Of a stretch of 32,888 nucleotides of DNA, positions 20,373 to 32,888 are shown in pieces. The translations under genes were made by a program, and so were the position numbers. Source of the DNA: Acidimicrobiales bacterium. GTDB lineage: Bacteria > Actinomycetota > Acidimicrobiia > Acidimicrobiales > UBA8592. Each line of letters begins with the position of its first letter. Positions within the stretch are counted from its first letter, which is position 1. Below the pieces are notes generated by a model. That model was not told the DNA's origin and did not search any database. It saw nothing but the letters and a program-made list of their open reading frames with translations. Location: NCBI GenBank assembly GCA_011523005.1, contig WTHU01000120.1, forward strand, positions 1 through 32,888, in the 5' to 3' direction.

Positions 20373-21836
20373 GTGCGAATAATTTACATTGATATCGATA
20401 CATTACGCGCTGACCACCTCGGGTGCGGTGGGTACCATCGAAACACATCGCCCAATATTGATAATGTCGCTAGTGAGGGGATCAACTTCAGGAACGTATA
20501 CGCATCCGACGTTCCATGTCTGCCAAGTAGAACAGCGTTAATTACCGGAATGTTTGGTATCCGCAATGGCGTCATTAATCACGGGGGCCGTGCAGCTGAT
20601 CTTCAACCCGAGGGAAAGGATCGAGGGTTTTTCGGAAGGTTCAGTATGCGGTCATGGGCCTCTGTTTTCTACCTTGCTGGGTGGCACACAGCATCTATAT
20701 CGTCATTCCCTTTTAGACATGGTGCGTCATGGTGGAATAGCGGATTCATGGAATCCATGAACCTGATGCGTGGGTTCGGAGGAGAAAGAGCAGATCAAGT
20801 AATTCCTGGTGCTTTGGATTGGTTGGAGAGGCGCGGAAAAGCAGATGACTGGTTTTTGCATGTTCATCTTTGGGACCCTCATACCCCATATCGGACACCT
20901 GAAGATTACGGAAACCCTTTTGAGAGTGACCCCGTTCCATCATGGCATACGGAGGATGTTCGCATGGCGAACTGGGATTTATCAGGTCCACATTCCGCTC
21001 AGGAACCATGGGGCTTCCGACCCGATGAATGGGGAGAGCCACCACCTCGGCAACCATGGAATGCGTCCTCAATGGATGCAGTGAAACAAATTTTTGATGG
21101 GTATGACGTCGGTATTCGCTATGCAGATGATGCTGTTGGGGTATTACTTAATAAACTCGCCGATTTAAATGTGTTGGAGGACACCGCTGTTCTAATTAGC
21201 TCCGACCATGGTGAGGCTTTCGGTGAACTCGGAGTGTATGCCGATCATCAGGCAGCTGACGAAGTGACATGCCATATCCCTTCAATACTCAAATGGCCTG
21301 GCTTAGAGCCTCAGACTTTCAATGGCTTGCAATACCATCTTGATGTTGCCGCTACGGTTGTTGACCTTGCAGGTTTGCGCATTCCTAGCCATTGGGATGG
21401 TGAATCAATTGCAAAGCATGTGCGTGAAGGGAATGATGCTGGTCGTGAATTTCTTGTATTGTCTCAGGGGGCATGGTCATGTCAACGTTCGGTTCGCTGG
21501 GATGATTACCTGTATATGCGGACATGGCATGATGGTTTCCACGGGCATTGGAATGAAGAAATGCTGTTTGACATCACGAATGACCCTCACGAACAAGACG
21601 ATCTCTTTTCTACAACAAACCCTGATGCTTCCCACGGAAGGTCGGTGCTTTCAGATTGGACTTCGTCACAATTGGAAAGGGGTTATAGCGCTGTTGACCC
21701 TATGGAAATTGTTCTTGAGGAAGGCGGACCATTCCACACAAGAGGCCACCTACCTGAATACATAGACAGACTTCGAAAAACTGGGCGTTCGCATTGGGCT
21801 GACGTACTCGAAAGCAGACACCCGACAGAACTTTAA
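20373..21836 (+). CDS. Sulfatase (formylglycine-dependent arylsulfatase family)
   Basis: This is a 487-residue alkaline phosphatase-superfamily sulfatase. The DTLRADHLG segment (9-17) begins the metal site, and VPCLPSR (47-53) is the formylglycine signature C-x-P-x-R, with Cys49 the residue converted to formylglycine. HVHLWDPHTPY and SSDHGEAFGE supply further metal and substrate contacts. The C-terminal third has the YMRTWHDGFH/EEMLFDITNDPHEQ pattern of choline-sulfatase- and arylsulfatase-like proteins. No signal peptide is visible, so it should act in the cytoplasm on an imported sulfate ester. The modifying enzyme (FGE) is not in this window. GTG is the only suitable start. The gene is divergent from an LLM gene and convergent with the carboxyltransferase. 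Confidence 0.93.
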   Translation: MRIIYIDIDTLRADHLGCGGYHRNTSPNIDNVASEGINFRNVYASDVPCLPSRTALITGMFGIRNGVINHGGRAADLQPEGKDRGFFGRFSMRSWASVFYLAGWHTASISSFPFRHGASWWNSGFMESMNLMRGFGGERADQVIPGALDWLERRGKADDWFLHVHLWDPHTPYRTPEDYGNPFESDPVPSWHTEDVRMANWDLSGPHSAQEPWGFRPDEWGEPPPRQPWNASSMDAVKQIFDGYDVGIRYADDAVGVLLNKLADLNVLEDTAVLISSDHGEAFGELGVYADHQAADEVTCHIPSILKWPGLEPQTFNGLQYHLDVAATVVDLAGLRIPSHWDGESIAKHVREGNDAGREFLVLSQGAWSCQRSVRWDDYLYMRTWHDGFHGHWNEEMLFDITNDPHEQDDLFSTTNPDASHGRSVLSDWTSSQLERGYSAVDPMEIVLEEGGPFHTRGHLPEYIDRLRKTGRSHWADVLESRHPTEL

Positions 21837-25475: not shown

Positions 25476-28016
25476 TTACGGGTGTTGATAGTTTTCTTCT
25501 CCGCTGAGTTCCCATTCAATAACTGCGTGGTGATTGGTTGCTGATCTGGCAACGACGAGGTCATATACTCCTGGCTCCGCATACCATCCGGGTTCTGTTC
25601 TCCGGGACCCTGTCTCTCTGGGTACTGGTGAATTTGCGTCAAGCGTATTGTAGAACTGATCGCCCGGATCGAAATATGCAAATGATCTGAAATTCAGCGT
25701 GATACTCGCTGTTTTCGTTTCGCCAGGTTCGAGGGCGAGTTTTGCATAGCCTTTGAGTTCGATGGGTGGGCGGTGAAGTGTCGATTTGGGAGGCGCTATG
25801 TAGAGCTGAACGACTTCAGTGCCCGATCTTTCGCTGGTATTAGTTACATCCACTTCAACGATGATGCCTGAGGATAGATCAGTTGACTGAGACCCGGTTA
25901 CATTTGGTGTTCCCCACTCAAATGATGCGTACGATAGGCCGTGTCCGAAAGGTACTGCTGGTTCAAGATGGCGTGCAGTGAACCAGCGATAACCTATGTA
26001 GAGTCCTTCTCCATATCGCACGACACTGTTTTCTCCCGGGTAGTTGAGGTACGCAGGGCTATGTTCGTATCGTGCAGGGACTGTTGTTGGCATGCGACCT
26101 GATGGGTCCTTTTCTCCTAAGAGGACGTCTACGAGAGCTTCCCCCAGTTCTTGCCCGGCAAATCCAATATTGAGTACGGCATTCGGGGTATCAATCCATG
26201 TCATGTCGTGTGGTCCTCCTGTGTTCACGACGACAATGGTTTTTGAATTAGCTAGACTGACTCGCTCAATGAGTTCAACTTGGTCGCCGGGGAGGAAAAA
26301 CGAGTCGCGGTCTCTTCCTTCTGTTTCCCAGTCATCATTTGTTCCGACAATTACAACGGCAGCATCTGATTTTGCTGCCAGATCTTCAGCTTCTTGGAGT
26401 AGGTCTCTTTCCATGATTGGTTTGAGTCCGATTCTGCATCCGAGCATAAGTATGGCGCCTTCACTGGAGAATTCAATTTCAATAGGTACCTCACGTCCTG
26501 CTTGCAGGTCAATCTCGGCTGTGATTTCAGCAGATCCCATTCCAAAGAAATCGTCGCCTTTGCCGTAGTCTCCTTCAGTGGCATCAATGATGACTTCATT
26601 GTTGATGCGTATTCTTGTTTTCCCGCTTTGCACCAGGCGGAGTTCATGCTTTCCCGAGATTTCAGGTGTGATTGTAGCTTTTCCGGAGAATGAATATGTG
26701 TGAGGGTCGACTCCTTTTGTGGGCGATCCAAAGAATTTAAAGTCAGCTCGGGAATATGTTTTGTGTGCTGCGATTTCTCCACCAATACTGTGACTGTTGA
26801 AAAAATCGACTTCAATAGGACTTGACAGGATCGGGGTTTCGATTGGGGGTGTTGTGCGATCAATATCGCAACCCTGCGCATAGGTAATCTCCAGATTTGT
26901 TCGCTCTGTTAGCGCGCTGAGAGGGCTCACATTTCTGTATGGTCTTACACCAGCGGATCCTCCACCCATGATTTTCGCTGACCTGGCATTTGGCCCTATG
27001 AGGGCCAGCGTTTCAAAGGCGTCTGGGTTGAGAGGCAGTACACCGTCGTTTTTGATGAGGACTGTTCCTTCAGTTGCGGCGTGACGGATAAGTTCTCGAT
27101 GCTCTGTGCTGTCGATTTGTTTTTCTTCTCCTCCGCCGACTCCGTTGAATGCGTTGGTGCGTTGCATGAGTCTCAGCATGTCTTTCACGATTTCATCTAG
27201 TTCTGATTCGGTGCATTCATCATTTTCTATTGCCTCAATAATGCGTTCCGGCCCATACCACTGACCCTTACCAGGCATTTCAAGACTCAGCCCGGCTTTG
27301 ATTGATGGTCCTGTTGATCGGGCGGCGAACCAGTCTGAGACAACAAAACCATTGAATCCCCATTGCTCTCTCAGTACCGTTTTTAACAGCCACTCATGTT
27401 CTGATGCGAATGTTCCATTGATCCGGTTGTAGGAACTCATTATCCCCCACGCGTTCCCGTCTTTTACTGCGTGTTCGAATGGCAGCAGATATACCTCACG
27501 TAATGTTCGTTCATCGACTTGGCTATCGATTGAATTTCGTTCGAACTCTGAGTCATTGGCGACGAAATGTTTCGCAGTCACAGCCACGTGCTGTGATTGG
27601 ACTCCATTGATGTAGCCTGCTGCGAGGGTTCCGGTGAGATATGGGTCTTCTGAATAGCATTCAAAGTTGCGTCCCCCTAGTGGGTTTCGGTGAAGGTTGA
27701 TCGTTGGGGCAAGAAGCACGTGGGCTCCCTTGGCGATGCTTTCCTCGGCTAGGAGAACCCCTAATTCTTCCATGAGGGTGGGGTTCCATGTTGATCCGAG
27801 GACAGAACCTGCTGGAATGCATGCGGTTGGTGTTCCGGTCCCCATCAGGCCTGCGCCTCTGGCACCGTTGGGTCCATCGGTTACGGTGAGTGCAGGGATT
27901 CCTGCGTCGCCGATTATTCTCGTTGTCCACATGCCATGACCGGTGACGACATTGGCTTTATCGGTAAGCGATAGTTCAGCGATGATATCGCTGATTTTGT
28001 TCTCGTCTACTGTCAA
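25476..28016 (-). CDS. GH3 family beta-glucosidase with PA14 domain
   Basis: This is an 846-residue glycoside hydrolase family 3 enzyme with the layout of Kluyveromyces BglI. The N-terminal TIM barrel has VTDGPNGARG, AKHF (148-151) and nucleophile Asp228 in GFVVSDWF. The second domain is interrupted by a PA14 insertion, roughly residues 400-540, and then has GTNDDWETEGRDRDS with the general-acid Glu. A fibronectin III-like C-terminal domain begins at GTEVVQLYIAPP. No signal peptide is visible, so the enzyme should cleave imported glycosides inside the cell. The start is TTG, supported by AGGAGG eight bases upstream. It lies 17 bases after the MaoC-fusion gene, in one operon. Confidence 0.93.
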   Translation of the reverse strand: MTVDENKISDIIAELSLTDKANVVTGHGMWTTRIIGDAGIPALTVTDGPNGARGAGLMGTGTPTACIPAGSVLGSTWNPTLMEELGVLLAEESIAKGAHVLLAPTINLHRNPLGGRNFECYSEDPYLTGTLAAGYINGVQSQHVAVTAKHFVANDSEFERNSIDSQVDERTLREVYLLPFEHAVKDGNAWGIMSSYNRINGTFASEHEWLLKTVLREQWGFNGFVVSDWFAARSTGPSIKAGLSLEMPGKGQWYGPERIIEAIENDECTESELDEIVKDMLRLMQRTNAFNGVGGGEEKQIDSTEHRELIRHAATEGTVLIKNDGVLPLNPDAFETLALIGPNARSAKIMGGGSAGVRPYRNVSPLSALTERTNLEITYAQGCDIDRTTPPIETPILSSPIEVDFFNSHSIGGEIAAHKTYSRADFKFFGSPTKGVDPHTYSFSGKATITPEISGKHELRLVQSGKTRIRINNEVIIDATEGDYGKGDDFFGMGSAEITAEIDLQAGREVPIEIEFSSEGAILMLGCRIGLKPIMERDLLQEAEDLAAKSDAAVVIVGTNDDWETEGRDRDSFFLPGDQVELIERVSLANSKTIVVVNTGGPHDMTWIDTPNAVLNIGFAGQELGEALVDVLLGEKDPSGRMPTTVPARYEHSPAYLNYPGENSVVRYGEGLYIGYRWFTARHLEPAVPFGHGLSYASFEWGTPNVTGSQSTDLSSGIIVEVDVTNTSERSGTEVVQLYIAPPKSTLHRPPIELKGYAKLALEPGETKTASITLNFRSFAYFDPGDQFYNTLDANSPVPRETGSRRTEPGWYAEPGVYDLVVARSATNHHAVIEWELSGEENYQHP

Positions 28017-30181: not shown

Positions 30182-30226
30182 GTTCGCTCCGTTGGGTCTG
30201 CGCCCCCGGGCCCAACGGAGAAGAAC
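30182..30226 (+). terminator. Strong hairpin after hsp20
   Basis: CTCCGTTGGG and CCCAACGGAG form a perfect ten-pair stem around a 14-base GC-rich loop. GTTC and GAAC extend it after a small bulge. It begins two bases after the hsp20 stop codon. There is no U-tract, which is common for terminators of actinobacteria. Confidence 0.65.
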
Positions 30227-30293
30227 TCACCGACAAGTTCGTGAACGAAGTCAAAGGTTGGTAGCATTCCGTCATCCCCCGATAGGAACACCA

Positions 30294-31100
30294 ATGGAAA
30301 CAAAAAGAGTGCATGTGCCGTCAACTAACCTTCGTGAGTTAGGCGGGTATCAAACCACTGATGGGTCCTTCATTAAATATGGTTGCATTTTTCGTTGTGG
30401 GCACATGAGTGAACTCACTCTTGAAGAAGAAGATATATATCGCAGTCTGAAGCTTAGGTTGATTATTGATTTACGTCGTGACGATGAGGTTGCCGAACGA
30501 CCAACTCCGACATTTGGTTCTGAGGACAATATTCATATTTCTGTGTCAGACCCTGATAACGCTTTCGCAGAGGCTGCAGCTAAGGCTCATGAGGATGGCG
30601 CTGAAAAGCTGATTCTTGCGGACGCGGTCCGCTATTACCGTGAGGTGGTCACTGACAATCTACATCGCTATATTCCAGTATTTGAGCAGATCTTTGACGC
30701 AGAGAATCACCCTGTTTTGTTTCATTGCACCGCTGGCAAGGACCGCACGGGTTTCGTCGCTGCTGCATTACTGAAGTTTCTTGGAGTTGATGATGAAACC
30801 GTTTTTGCTGATTATCTTCTGACGAATACCTTGCTCGGCGATCGCACTGAGGAGCGTTTGCAAGCGTGGGCGAAACGAATGGCGAATCAGCGAGGGACTC
30901 CTATAACTGAGATTAATGAGGAAGCGTTAGGTGCATTACGGATTCTGATGCTTACCCATGCTGATATGCTCCAGTCAACATTTGATGCTGTTGATGAGTT
31001 GTATGGATCGTGGGATGAGATGCGCAGAACGGGTCTAGGTATTAGTGATGAGAAGATGGCTGCGTTCTGCGAAGCCGTGCTCGTCAAGAATTCTGCGTGA
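30294..31100 (+). CDS. Tyrosine phosphatase family protein (Y_phosphatase3-like)
   Basis: This is a 268-residue protein of the tyrosine/dual-specificity phosphatase fold. The P-loop is FHCTAGKDRTGF, with nucleophile Cys145 and Arg151 (C-x5-R). The N-terminal TNLRELGGYQTTDG and LIIDLRRDDE segments are typical of the bacterial family that includes MPtpB. It may act on phosphoproteins or phosphoinositides. The frame stays open to 30192, but ATG 30294 gives the normal N-terminus, and AGGA lies six bases upstream, after the hairpin. Its last 17 bases overlap the 3' end of the convergent transporter gene. Confidence 0.9.
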   Translation: METKRVHVPSTNLRELGGYQTTDGSFIKYGCIFRCGHMSELTLEEEDIYRSLKLRLIIDLRRDDEVAERPTPTFGSEDNIHISVSDPDNAFAEAAAKAHEDGAEKLILADAVRYYREVVTDNLHRYIPVFEQIFDAENHPVLFHCTAGKDRTGFVAAALLKFLGVDDETVFADYLLTNTLLGDRTEERLQAWAKRMANQRGTPITEINEEALGALRILMLTHADMLQSTFDAVDELYGSWDEMRRTGLGISDEKMAAFCEAVLVKNSA

Positions 31101-31971
31101 GAGTCGTTAGATACGCTCCCGCTAAAACAATGACTGTGCCCAAAATTGCCCACAGTGTTATGGAGTCGTTACGAAATACCACGCCGAGGAAGACGGCAAC
31201 GATAGGAATCAGGTAGGTGACGATTGATGTCCGGACTGCTCCGACACGGCCATTGAGCTCTGCCGCTAGAACGAACGCTATCCCGGTTCCCCCAGCTCCA
31301 AGTGCGATGCAGGCTATCATCGGACCCCATCCGAATCCGCTGTCGGTAACGCCTACTACTCCGTACGGGAGCGCAAGGATTACTGCTACAAGAAGCGCAC
31401 TTCGTACAACGGGTATAGCACCATACTGGCGTTGGAGAGGCCCAGCGATGTGCACAGCGACCCCATATGAGAGAACGGCGAGAATCACTAAAAGAACTCC
31501 TATTGCATTTGTGCCGTCTGTCGTAACCTCTGGGAGTCCGATGAGTACTAGACCTGCGAGCCCTGTGAAAACTCCGATCAGTTGAATGGGTGCGGTGGGG
31601 GTGGCAAATACTGCTAACCCTATGAGTACAGTGAAGATGGGCATTGCGCTGTTGAGCATGCCTGTCAATGATGAGTTGATCCATTGTTGGGCGATGGGAA
31701 ACATGGTGAGAGGAAAAGCAATCCATGTGATTCCAAGAAGAACGATTTTTTTTCGATCCTGCTGGTCGAAAGGTCGGGTTTTGATGGGAATCAGCCAAAG
31801 AGCTGCGCATCCAAAGGCTATTCGGAAAAGCGTTACAAGCCCCGGCGCGAAGGCCTCCAAACCTATATCGATAAAGAAAAAAGATGCTCCCCAAATCCCT
31901 GCTGCGCCGAGAAGCAACCCCCAGTCAAGGAGTTGGAATTTAGCATGTTCAGCATTTACCGTTTCAGCCAC
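31084..31971 (-). CDS. EamA (DMT) family transporter
   Basis: This is a 295-residue integral membrane protein with about ten hydrophobic helices in two EamA repeats (about residues 15-145 and 155-290). It belongs to the drug/metabolite transporter superfamily, which exports metabolites or amino acids; the substrate is unknown. GLLLGAAGIWGASFFFID starts the first repeat and the SIVTYLIPIVAVFLGV helix lies near the end of the second. The GTG start has no well-spaced ribosome site but has TAGGCT six bases upstream, suggesting a leaderless mRNA. The 3' end overlaps the phosphatase gene. Confidence 0.92.
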   Translation of the reverse strand: MAETVNAEHAKFQLLDWGLLLGAAGIWGASFFFIDIGLEAFAPGLVTLFRIAFGCAALWLIPIKTRPFDQQDRKKIVLLGITWIAFPLTMFPIAQQWINSSLTGMLNSAMPIFTVLIGLAVFATPTAPIQLIGVFTGLAGLVLIGLPEVTTDGTNAIGVLLVILAVLSYGVAVHIAGPLQRQYGAIPVVRSALLVAVILALPYGVVGVTDSGFGWGPMIACIALGAGGTGIAFVLAAELNGRVGAVRTSIVTYLIPIVAVFLGVVFRNDSITLWAILGTVIVLAGAYLTTLTQNS

Positions 31972-32005: not shown

Positions 32006-32888
32006 CTACCGTGTGCAGATGAGGGCTCCTTGCCCATCCTCGGTATCAGGATTTCCATCCGGATCAGTACCGACGAGAAGACATGTTCCCGAAGGCACCG
32101 TTGGAGTGGGTGGGAAAAGGTCAGATTCAACATCTCCATTCTCATCAACGACCCCTATCAGAAATGGGTTGGCGACATCACAGGCTGCTGGGAAGACTTG
32201 AATGAATGTTTCGTATGTGGCTGCGCATCCCAACCCGCCTAGATATTGACCAGGTGTGAATCCGCTTCCTGTAATGACACCTTGCCATAGTTCACCATCA
32301 ACAATGCCAGGGCTTATCGTAACTTCGACTCCAGGGTCAGAATAGATCTGATTACTGGTGAGGTCTGGTACATCCGATTCTGGCAGCACTTGCGTGTTTT
32401 CAGAACAAAGGATTGCTCCTGGGCCATCGTCGGTATCAGGATTGTTATCTGGATCAGTTGCGATTCCAAGGCATGTTCCAGAGGGTGATATTAGAAAAGG
32501 GTCGTTGATCGTGATTGAGAATGTTCCTTCGTTATCTGTAAATGCGAAGATTGGTTGATCAATGGCGCATACGTCGAAGAAGTTCGTGAATACAACTATC
32601 TCATCGCCTGCTTCACATCCAAAAATTGCAACACCGACGTTTGCGGGTAGGCCACTTCCAGATATTTCGCCTTCCCATAAATATCCGTTAGTGAAACCGG
32701 GACTGATAACAACTTGAACTCCTGGGTCAGCCCATTCAAGGTCATTAACGAGATCAGGTGCCGGTGTATCAGGGAACATGAAGTTACTTACATCCTGATC
32801 ATCGCTTGCAGTGTCAGCCAAGCCATCTGTGTCATCGTCAAGTATTCCGGATTCTAAAACGGCTGCGAAATCAGCTGGTGAGAGTTCA
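32006..32888 (-). CDS. Secreted-type repeat protein, neocarzinostatin-like domains (partial, 5' end outside window)
   Basis: I see 293 residues up to the stop codon; the N-terminus lies beyond the window edge, so a signal peptide cannot be checked. The frame continues through position 32821 to the edge, and the TTG there is simply an internal Leu codon. An acidic linker (DDDTDGLADTASDDQD) precedes two repeats of about 118 residues. Each has DPGVxVxISPG, LWxGxIxGSG, a G-C, a later C, PSGTC and TDPDxNPDTxDGxGAxxC, so four cysteines per repeat that could form two disulfides. The GxGFxPGxY...GC pattern recalls the neocarzinostatin/actinoxanthin Ig-like fold of actinobacteria. This is a fold suggestion only; function is unknown, and a cell-surface or secreted place is inferred. 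Confidence 0.75.
   Translation of the reverse strand, partial: ELSPADFAAVLESGILDDDTDGLADTASDDQDVSNFMFPDTPAPDLVNDLEWADPGVQVVISPGFTNGYLWEGEISGSGLPANVGVAIFGCEAGDEIVVFTNFFDVCAIDQPIFAFTDNEGTFSITINDPFLISPSGTCLGIATDPDNNPDTDDGPGAILCSENTQVLPESDVPDLTSNQIYSDPGVEVTISPGIVDGELWQGVITGSGFTPGQYLGGLGCAATYETFIQVFPAACDVANPFLIGVVDENGDVESDLFPPTPTVPSGTCLLVGTDPDGNPDTEDGQGALICTR
32015..32368 (-). repeat. Protein repeat unit B (about 118 residues)
   Basis: This is the second tandem domain, offset by 130 codons from unit A. It runs from PDLTSN to ALIC, and its cysteines fall at positions matching unit A, apart from a one-residue shift at the second cysteine. Confidence 0.7.
32405..32758 (-). repeat. Protein repeat unit A (about 118 residues)
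   Basis: This is the first of two homologous tandem domains in the partial gene at the right edge. It runs from PDLVND to AILC, with cysteines in IFGC, DVC, SGTC and AILC. Confidence 0.7.

Follow-up and report, generated by a model that had tools for sequence, protein, structure and literature searches.

Does the end of this contig encode a surface protein built from tandem neocarzinostatin-type domains, and if so, what might it do in a bacterium that is not a streptomycete? Domains of this type mostly enter the discussion as carriers of enediynes, and the original prediction considered tandem copies in an apparent surface protein of a non-streptomycete to be noteworthy. The window, by which we mean the whole stretch of 32,888 nucleotides analyzed here, is the complete contig C85 of assembly G000 (1.95 Mb in 187 contigs, 88% complete), and its host is probably a marine bacterium of the order Acidimicrobiales. 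A minus-strand reading frame is entered at the contig end (position 32887) and reaches its stop at 32006, giving 293 residues. Since the window is the whole contig, the 5' end of the gene was cut by the assembly, and the true start lies beyond the contig. Based on the open frame and its homologues, we describe this feature (32006..32887, minus strand, 293 codons plus stop) as the 3' part of a probable lipoprotein gene; judged from the homologues, it would encode about two thirds, the C-terminal part, of a membrane-anchored lipoprotein.

The frame has a simple architecture, all of it on the minus strand. Homologue alignment places the end of a helical two-cysteine module (ELSPADFAAVLESGIL; helices predicted in the homologue L008) and an acidic linker at 32762..32887, ahead of two candidate neocarzinostatin-like domains: repeat 1 at 32399..32761, with cysteines at repeat positions 49, 65, 97, and 119, and repeat 2, the one modelled below, at 32009..32371, with cysteines at positions 49, 64, 97, and 119. 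The repeats are 121 residues each and 41% identical. Both contain the motifs SPG, GSGL or GSGF, and GC, as well as four cysteines and a loop rich in Asp, which the repeat alignment locates at 32423..32458 in repeat 1 (TDPDNNPDTDDG) and at 32033..32068 in repeat 2 (TDPDGNPDTEDG). The tandem four-cysteine repeats with an Asp-rich loop that had been predicted are therefore present. The motif proposed for them needs amendment: SPG, GC, and the cysteines occur as described and repeat 2 has GSGF-T-P, but the pattern GSGF/L-x-P fails in repeat 1, which reads GSGL-P with no spacer residue.

The gene was found (E 0.001) in 7 of 99 sampled genomes, its own included, and all seven are among the 18 genomes of its genus; G002, the sole genus genome more than 90% complete, is without it. 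Five other genus genomes encode both repeats, at 52–72% identity to the window frame over the shared part, while the copy in G001 is a fragment cut by its contig. The ratio pN/pS lies between 0.21 and 0.45 in six comparisons of the window with a relative; one further comparison, in which two very close relatives are set against each other, gives 0.63. The second repeat of the window shares 74–77% identity with the second repeats of the three relatives nearest to it. These homologues, the repeat-wise identities, and the pN/pS values of 0.21–0.45 indicate that the repeats are more than a product of chance, and because repeat 2 is 74–77% identical between species while the two repeats are 41% identical to each other, the duplication predates the split of these species. 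For profile comparisons we assembled a set of 12 repeats, leaving out L007 and L050 (from G001, cut by the contig) and aligning L006 once with L008, as they are the same gene. The 12-repeat profile had no match outside the genus at E 0.001 in 248 genomes of the order, and no relatives were found in plasmids and phages at E 0.01. By sequence, the repeats thus appear as a divergent variant found, in the sets searched, in this genus alone.

The homologues also supply the front of the protein. Their frames span 407–433 residues from stop to stop. A signal peptide opens four of the five long ones, with LAGC, LASC, LAGC, and LTGC as their lipoboxes; an acidic linker and then the two-cysteine module follow. 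With the LTAC lipobox of the contig-cut G001 copy, the signature of a bacterial lipoprotein, a signal peptide with a lipobox cysteine, is found by pattern in 5/6 homologue fronts; L005 is the one front lacking it, and the front of the window protein itself lies beyond the assembly. The earlier description of an apparent surface protein gains support from these fronts. In a full-length model of L008, built from two rows (window and L008), the module contains helices in blocks at pLDDT of approximately 49–81, while both repeats, at pLDDT of approximately 23–43, are left without resolved structure; a structure search with this model yielded no row above Z 4.5.

The two-cysteine module is not restricted to this protein. 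It was matched in 4 of 118 genomes drawn from the order, all four from this genus, where it follows the lipoprotein signal in a series of unrelated lipoproteins (L078, L081, L082, L086, L088, L089, and, by sequence, a protein on contig C21 of the window's own genome, L080). Several of these, including the C21 protein, are ABC solute-binding proteins, with Peripla_BP_6 over its cut-off in L078 and L086 and below it in L081; others are a beta-lactamase-like protein (L088) and a protein without a Pfam match (L089). We considered the solute-binding fusions as a hint of a ligand-binding or receptor role and dropped the idea, as the module also occurs on L088 and L089. Its presence on unrelated lipoproteins suggests a generic stalk that is silent on ligand, and from sequence the helical module looks like a lipoprotein stalk or tether of this kind.

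Are the repeats related to neocarzinostatin? The window frame has no Pfam match even at E 10, L008 alone has none at E 0.01, and a PF00960 search of the window's own genome is likewise empty at E 0.01. Against NCBIfam, the frame matches NF040680 (enediyne antibiotic chromoprotein) at E 0.0014 with 18.5 bits, for a cut-off of 86 bits; three longer homologues do so at E 5.1e-7, 2.5e-6, and 0.0024, the best of them scoring 29.6 bits, also below the cut-off. PF00960 was matched in one of six frames at E 6.8e-5. When the 12 repeats were scanned singly at E 10, PF00960 was the sole Pfam family matched (1/12, E 0.009) and NF040680 the sole NCBIfam family (8/12, best E 0.002). Neither the window frame nor the repeats reach the curated cut-offs (25 bits for PF00960, 86 bits for NF040680), and a PDB sequence search with the window frame and the 12-repeat profile found no neocarzinostatin relative. 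The original prediction named a confident match to another named domain as an outcome that would speak against it; the Pfam scans of the frame and the repeats contain none.

Comparison of profiles is more informative. With hhalign, the 12 repeats align to 30 PF00960 domains of the order with probability 94.4 and a score of 45.0. The controls stay far lower: column shuffling of the repeats gave no score above 17.0 in 100 trials, and reversal gave 11.3. The alignment spans 63 columns of the front half and leaves the rear half, with the Asp-rich loop, unmatched. Similarly, the repeats score 10.7–18.9 bits against a model of the 30 domains, compared to at most 8.3 bits for 2400 shuffled sequences. 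Homology to accepted PF00960 members is therefore found at the profile level for the front half only. Three small proteins of the genus (L040, L041, and L044) form a bridge, as their profile aligns to the repeats with probability 95.6 and to the family with 96.8, and in the PDB sequence search the tandem protein L012 from the Acidimicrobiales has direct matches to macromomycin (E 1.5e-8) and C-1027 (E 2.5e-7). Based on these comparisons, it appears largely right to describe the repeats as divergent relatives of the neocarzinostatin family rather than filed members.

Structure prediction points in the same direction. The model of repeat 2, built from four rows (window and L008), has eight strands and one short helix, with a mean pLDDT of 53.4 and a pTM of 0.54. 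In Foldseek, the top three places go to macromomycin, kedarcidin, and neocarzinostatin, in that order, with E values from 0.009 to 0.031 and TM-scores of 0.39–0.55; there is no match at E 0.001. We took a second look at the Foldseek list with VIA-align, whose notes call Z under 8 common. Its first nine rows all belong to the neocarzinostatin family (Z 7.2 to 6.1, rmsd 2.7–3.5 over 89–93 residues), including 4jw3, which we identified as neocarzinostatin; the tenth is a monobody that ties with the ninth at Z 6.1, and kedarcidin is 32nd at Z 5.5. The family thus comes first in both structure comparisons of a predicted Ig-like sandwich, at a pLDDT of 53.4, Foldseek E values of at least 0.009, and Z under 8. 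Modelling of one repeat and a fold search had been proposed as a check, and the outcome agrees with the prediction in placing the chromoproteins on top and in giving no non-Ig-like fold, but at this pLDDT it is too weak to settle the matter.

A different origin for the repeats has to be weighed at this point, namely that they belong to another Ig-like family and that GSGFxPG...C...C reflects convergence among bacterial surface Ig-like domains. Both curated cut-offs are missed, and chains of a monobody, a biofilm protein, and a superoxide dismutase reach Z 5.8–6.1, close to the 6.1–7.2 of the neocarzinostatin family. Convergence would nevertheless have to account for PF00960 and the chromoprotein model being the only matches of the repeats at E 10, for a front half, both cysteines included, that aligns to PF00960 domains far above shuffles, and for the small single-domain proteins that bridge the two groups, and we regard it as quite unlikely. 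A neocarzinostatin-type fold is supported by the model, not proven. Overall, profile kinship (94.4; 45.0 versus at most 17.0) and model ranking support the predicted fold, and the resemblance first noticed is genuine, if subtle; the missed cut-offs, the restriction to the front half, and the rear cysteines mark the repeats as divergent.

These rear cysteines constitute the main departure from the family. When 6 of the 12 repeats were aligned jointly with 8 of the 30 PF00960 domains by MAFFT, every row had the first two cysteines and also a third. In the repeats, 22 residues separate the two rear cysteines, compared to 6–12 in the eight family domains. The two alignments at hand differ as to which member of the family's rear pair corresponds to the third cysteine of the repeats: MAFFT places it on the second and a HMMER alignment to L012 on the first; the spacing from the second to the third cysteine (31–34 residues in the repeats, 33–36 in the family) favors the first. 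The MAFFT alignment and an end-to-end alignment of the model with chromoproteins suggest that the last cysteine may have shifted to where the last strand ends. Alternatively, the HMMER alignment to L012 would allow the Asp-rich loop to be an insertion between the rear pair, with the last strand or strands of the family missing.

The loop itself is conserved. It occurs in 12/12 repeats in the form TDPDxNx[DNE]TxDG, in 0/30 PF00960 frames, and in 0/3 of the small genus proteins. The original prediction suggested that it may bind calcium, and each repeat could then be a calcium-stabilized adhesion domain, as its presence in every repeat, its absence from the PF00960 frames, and the net charge of the repeats, -15 to -20, might lead one to expect. 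The canonical calcium-binding loop motif is given as Dx[DN]xDG (PMC3123361). It is found in none of the 12 loops and matches once elsewhere, in repeat 2 of L005, so the motif lends the proposal no support, although the loop might bind a metal all the same. Moreover, the acidity may merely reflect habitat. From sequence, calcium-stabilized adhesion is possible but doubtful.

Taking these observations together, we consider it probable that the gene encodes a tethered surface protein with disulfide-stapled, divergent neocarzinostatin-type Ig-like domains and a binding or adhesion role. In this model, the protein would be exported, and a lipid on the lipobox cysteine would tether it to the membrane, with the acidic linker and the small helical module holding the domains off the surface. 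The outer end would consist of two Ig-like beta-sandwich domains, divergent relatives of neocarzinostatin, each probably held together by a disulfide in the first position of the family and by a second that would connect the two final strands, which flank the Asp-rich loop. The pair would most likely serve as a surface binding or adhesion module for something extracellular rather than as an enediyne carrier. The frame, the repeats, the homologues, the lipobox in relatives, the kinship of the front half at the profile level, and the gene order are observed directly; the details of the fold, the pairing of the disulfides, the surface location, and the binding role are inferred.

The genomic setting suggests a partner. 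A gene for an EamA-family transporter (31084..31971, minus strand; Pfam EamA, E=1.6e-27) lies 34 bases downstream and may form an operon with the lipoprotein gene. It is located 33–34 bases downstream on the same strand in all six loci that reach that far; the opposite flank has an oxidoreductase-like gene (named by eye) in divergent orientation in 5/6. A close EamA orthologue (E 1e-40) is present in 7 of the 18 genus genomes, six of which contain the lipoprotein; the other is G007, where the orthologue is 55% identical and has different genes upstream. Thus, 6/7 lipoprotein-bearing genomes have the orthologue (the seventh locus is cut by a contig end), compared to 1/11 of those without the lipoprotein. 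Because of this gene order, co-expression of the two genes is likely; that they also act together on a small molecule is guesswork. The promoter scan found none (shuffled mean 2.2) and the tRNA scan likewise none. Elsewhere in the window are a tyrosine-phosphatase-family gene (Y_phosphatase3, 30192-31100) that shares 17 bases with the convergent EamA frame, a family 3 glycoside hydrolase whose C-terminal domain match encloses a PA14 domain (Pfam; 25476-28016), and a sulfatase-family gene (20373-21836) that adjoins several genes recurring in related loci.

By analogy to chromoproteins, which sequester their chromophore, the lipoprotein could instead bind or sequester a small molecule and work with the EamA transporter. 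The constant pairing of the two genes, on one strand with a gap of 33–34 bases in 6/6 loci, and their co-occurrence across the genus are what this idea would predict, but in genomes that are incomplete such co-occurrence may merely track one subclade. EamA transporters have many substrates, which also counts against a specific assignment, and a ligand pocket is not readable in a model with a pLDDT of 53.4. We therefore regard sequestration as unlikely. A bolder combination is improbable in our judgment: a genus-specific neocarzinostatin branch with a rewired second disulfide and an acidic, perhaps metal-binding loop by the ligand cleft of the family, which would work with an EamA exporter as a tethered receptor or scavenger. 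If it were true, the chromoprotein principle of binding and moving a labile small molecule would be in use outside enediyne biology.

The tethered binding or adhesion protein that we favor leaves the question of enediynes, since the window frame and its homologues do give sub-threshold matches to the chromoprotein model. An ordinary apoprotein would be tied to an enediyne pathway of the host. Acyltransferase (PF00698) frames occur in 14 of the 18 genus genomes, with no match in the other four, and they are only 381–528 residues long; no polyketide-type gene run was seen by eye around the loci; and the protein carries two domains on a lipoprotein stalk. We rejected an enediyne pathway on the grounds that none of the 18 genus genomes contains a synthase-sized PF00698 frame (more than 528 residues); this absence, from a search with PF00698 alone in genomes 62–94% complete, is strong, not absolute. 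The search can miss some frames, as it found none in G161 (97% complete), where a small housekeeping one is expected. An ordinary enediyne apoprotein is thus a very remote prospect.

The wider distribution of the family bears on how unusual this protein is. The original prediction took the family to be a small one, described chiefly from enediyne producers. This premise fails: a search of 198 genomes of the order matched PF00960 at E 0.01 in 57, of which 44 are over the cut-off, and at E 0.001 it was matched in 17 of 100 genomes of a class-wide draw, 16 over the cut-off (the two draws have genomes in common); none of 14 control genomes had a match. Tandem arrays are also present, with five matched copies in one frame in L010 and four in L012. 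The domains are frequent in the Acidimicrobiales (L009-L038), with 22 PF00960 matches in the genome G024. With the surface protein CwpG described below, this means that tandem and surface-bound neocarzinostatin-like domains are not rare, and rarity, for which such copies had been singled out, no longer recommends this protein. We found no paper linking neocarzinostatin with Acidimicrobi- in the open-access collection searched.

Several known proteins resemble the window protein in part. The apoproteins of neocarzinostatin, macromomycin, C-1027, and kedarcidin share with the repeats the front-half pattern, the first cysteine pair, and the third cysteine, as well as, for the family as a whole, the predicted sandwich and domain size. 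The repeats differ in falling below the curated cut-offs, in the spacing of the rear cysteines (22 versus 6–12 residues), and in having the Asp-rich loop and a two-residue insertion in the front; unlike the enediyne apoproteins, the window protein is tandem and a probable lipoprotein with a helical module, and no enediyne synthase is indicated in its genus. L010, L012, and other tandem PF00960 proteins of the Acidimicrobiales likewise contain neocarzinostatin-family domains in tandem, but they pass the Pfam cut-off, lack the Asp-rich loop, and do not match the stalk module. L040, L041, and L044 (178–188 residues) have a single neocarzinostatin-like domain with a profile link to the repeats and no Asp-rich loop, and L044 has an LPXTG-type C-terminal anchor (Pfam and NCBIfam match) instead of a lipid anchor. 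CwpG of Actinoplanes missouriensis, reported in 2026 as a candidate sortase-dependent surface protein (PMC13251363), is comparable in that its surface protein, too, includes a domain resembling neocarzinostatin; it is from another order and, in the portion of that report available to us, has a single domain (residues 31–131) and no mention of a lipid anchor.

What this gene adds is the probable lipid-anchored form, together with the unusual rear cysteines and the acidic loop, on a small protein. Neocarzinostatin-type domains are widely used as building blocks in the order Acidimicrobiales, and tandem copies are frequent. Among five multi-copy genomes, G024 and G149 have large synthase-like frames, G129 and G158 have small acyltransferase frames only, and G161 has none. 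The lack of a synthase-sized acyltransferase frame in three of the five (G129, G158, and G161) fits the idea that an extracellular domain came first and that the apoproteins of the enediyne antibiotics are one specialized use of it.
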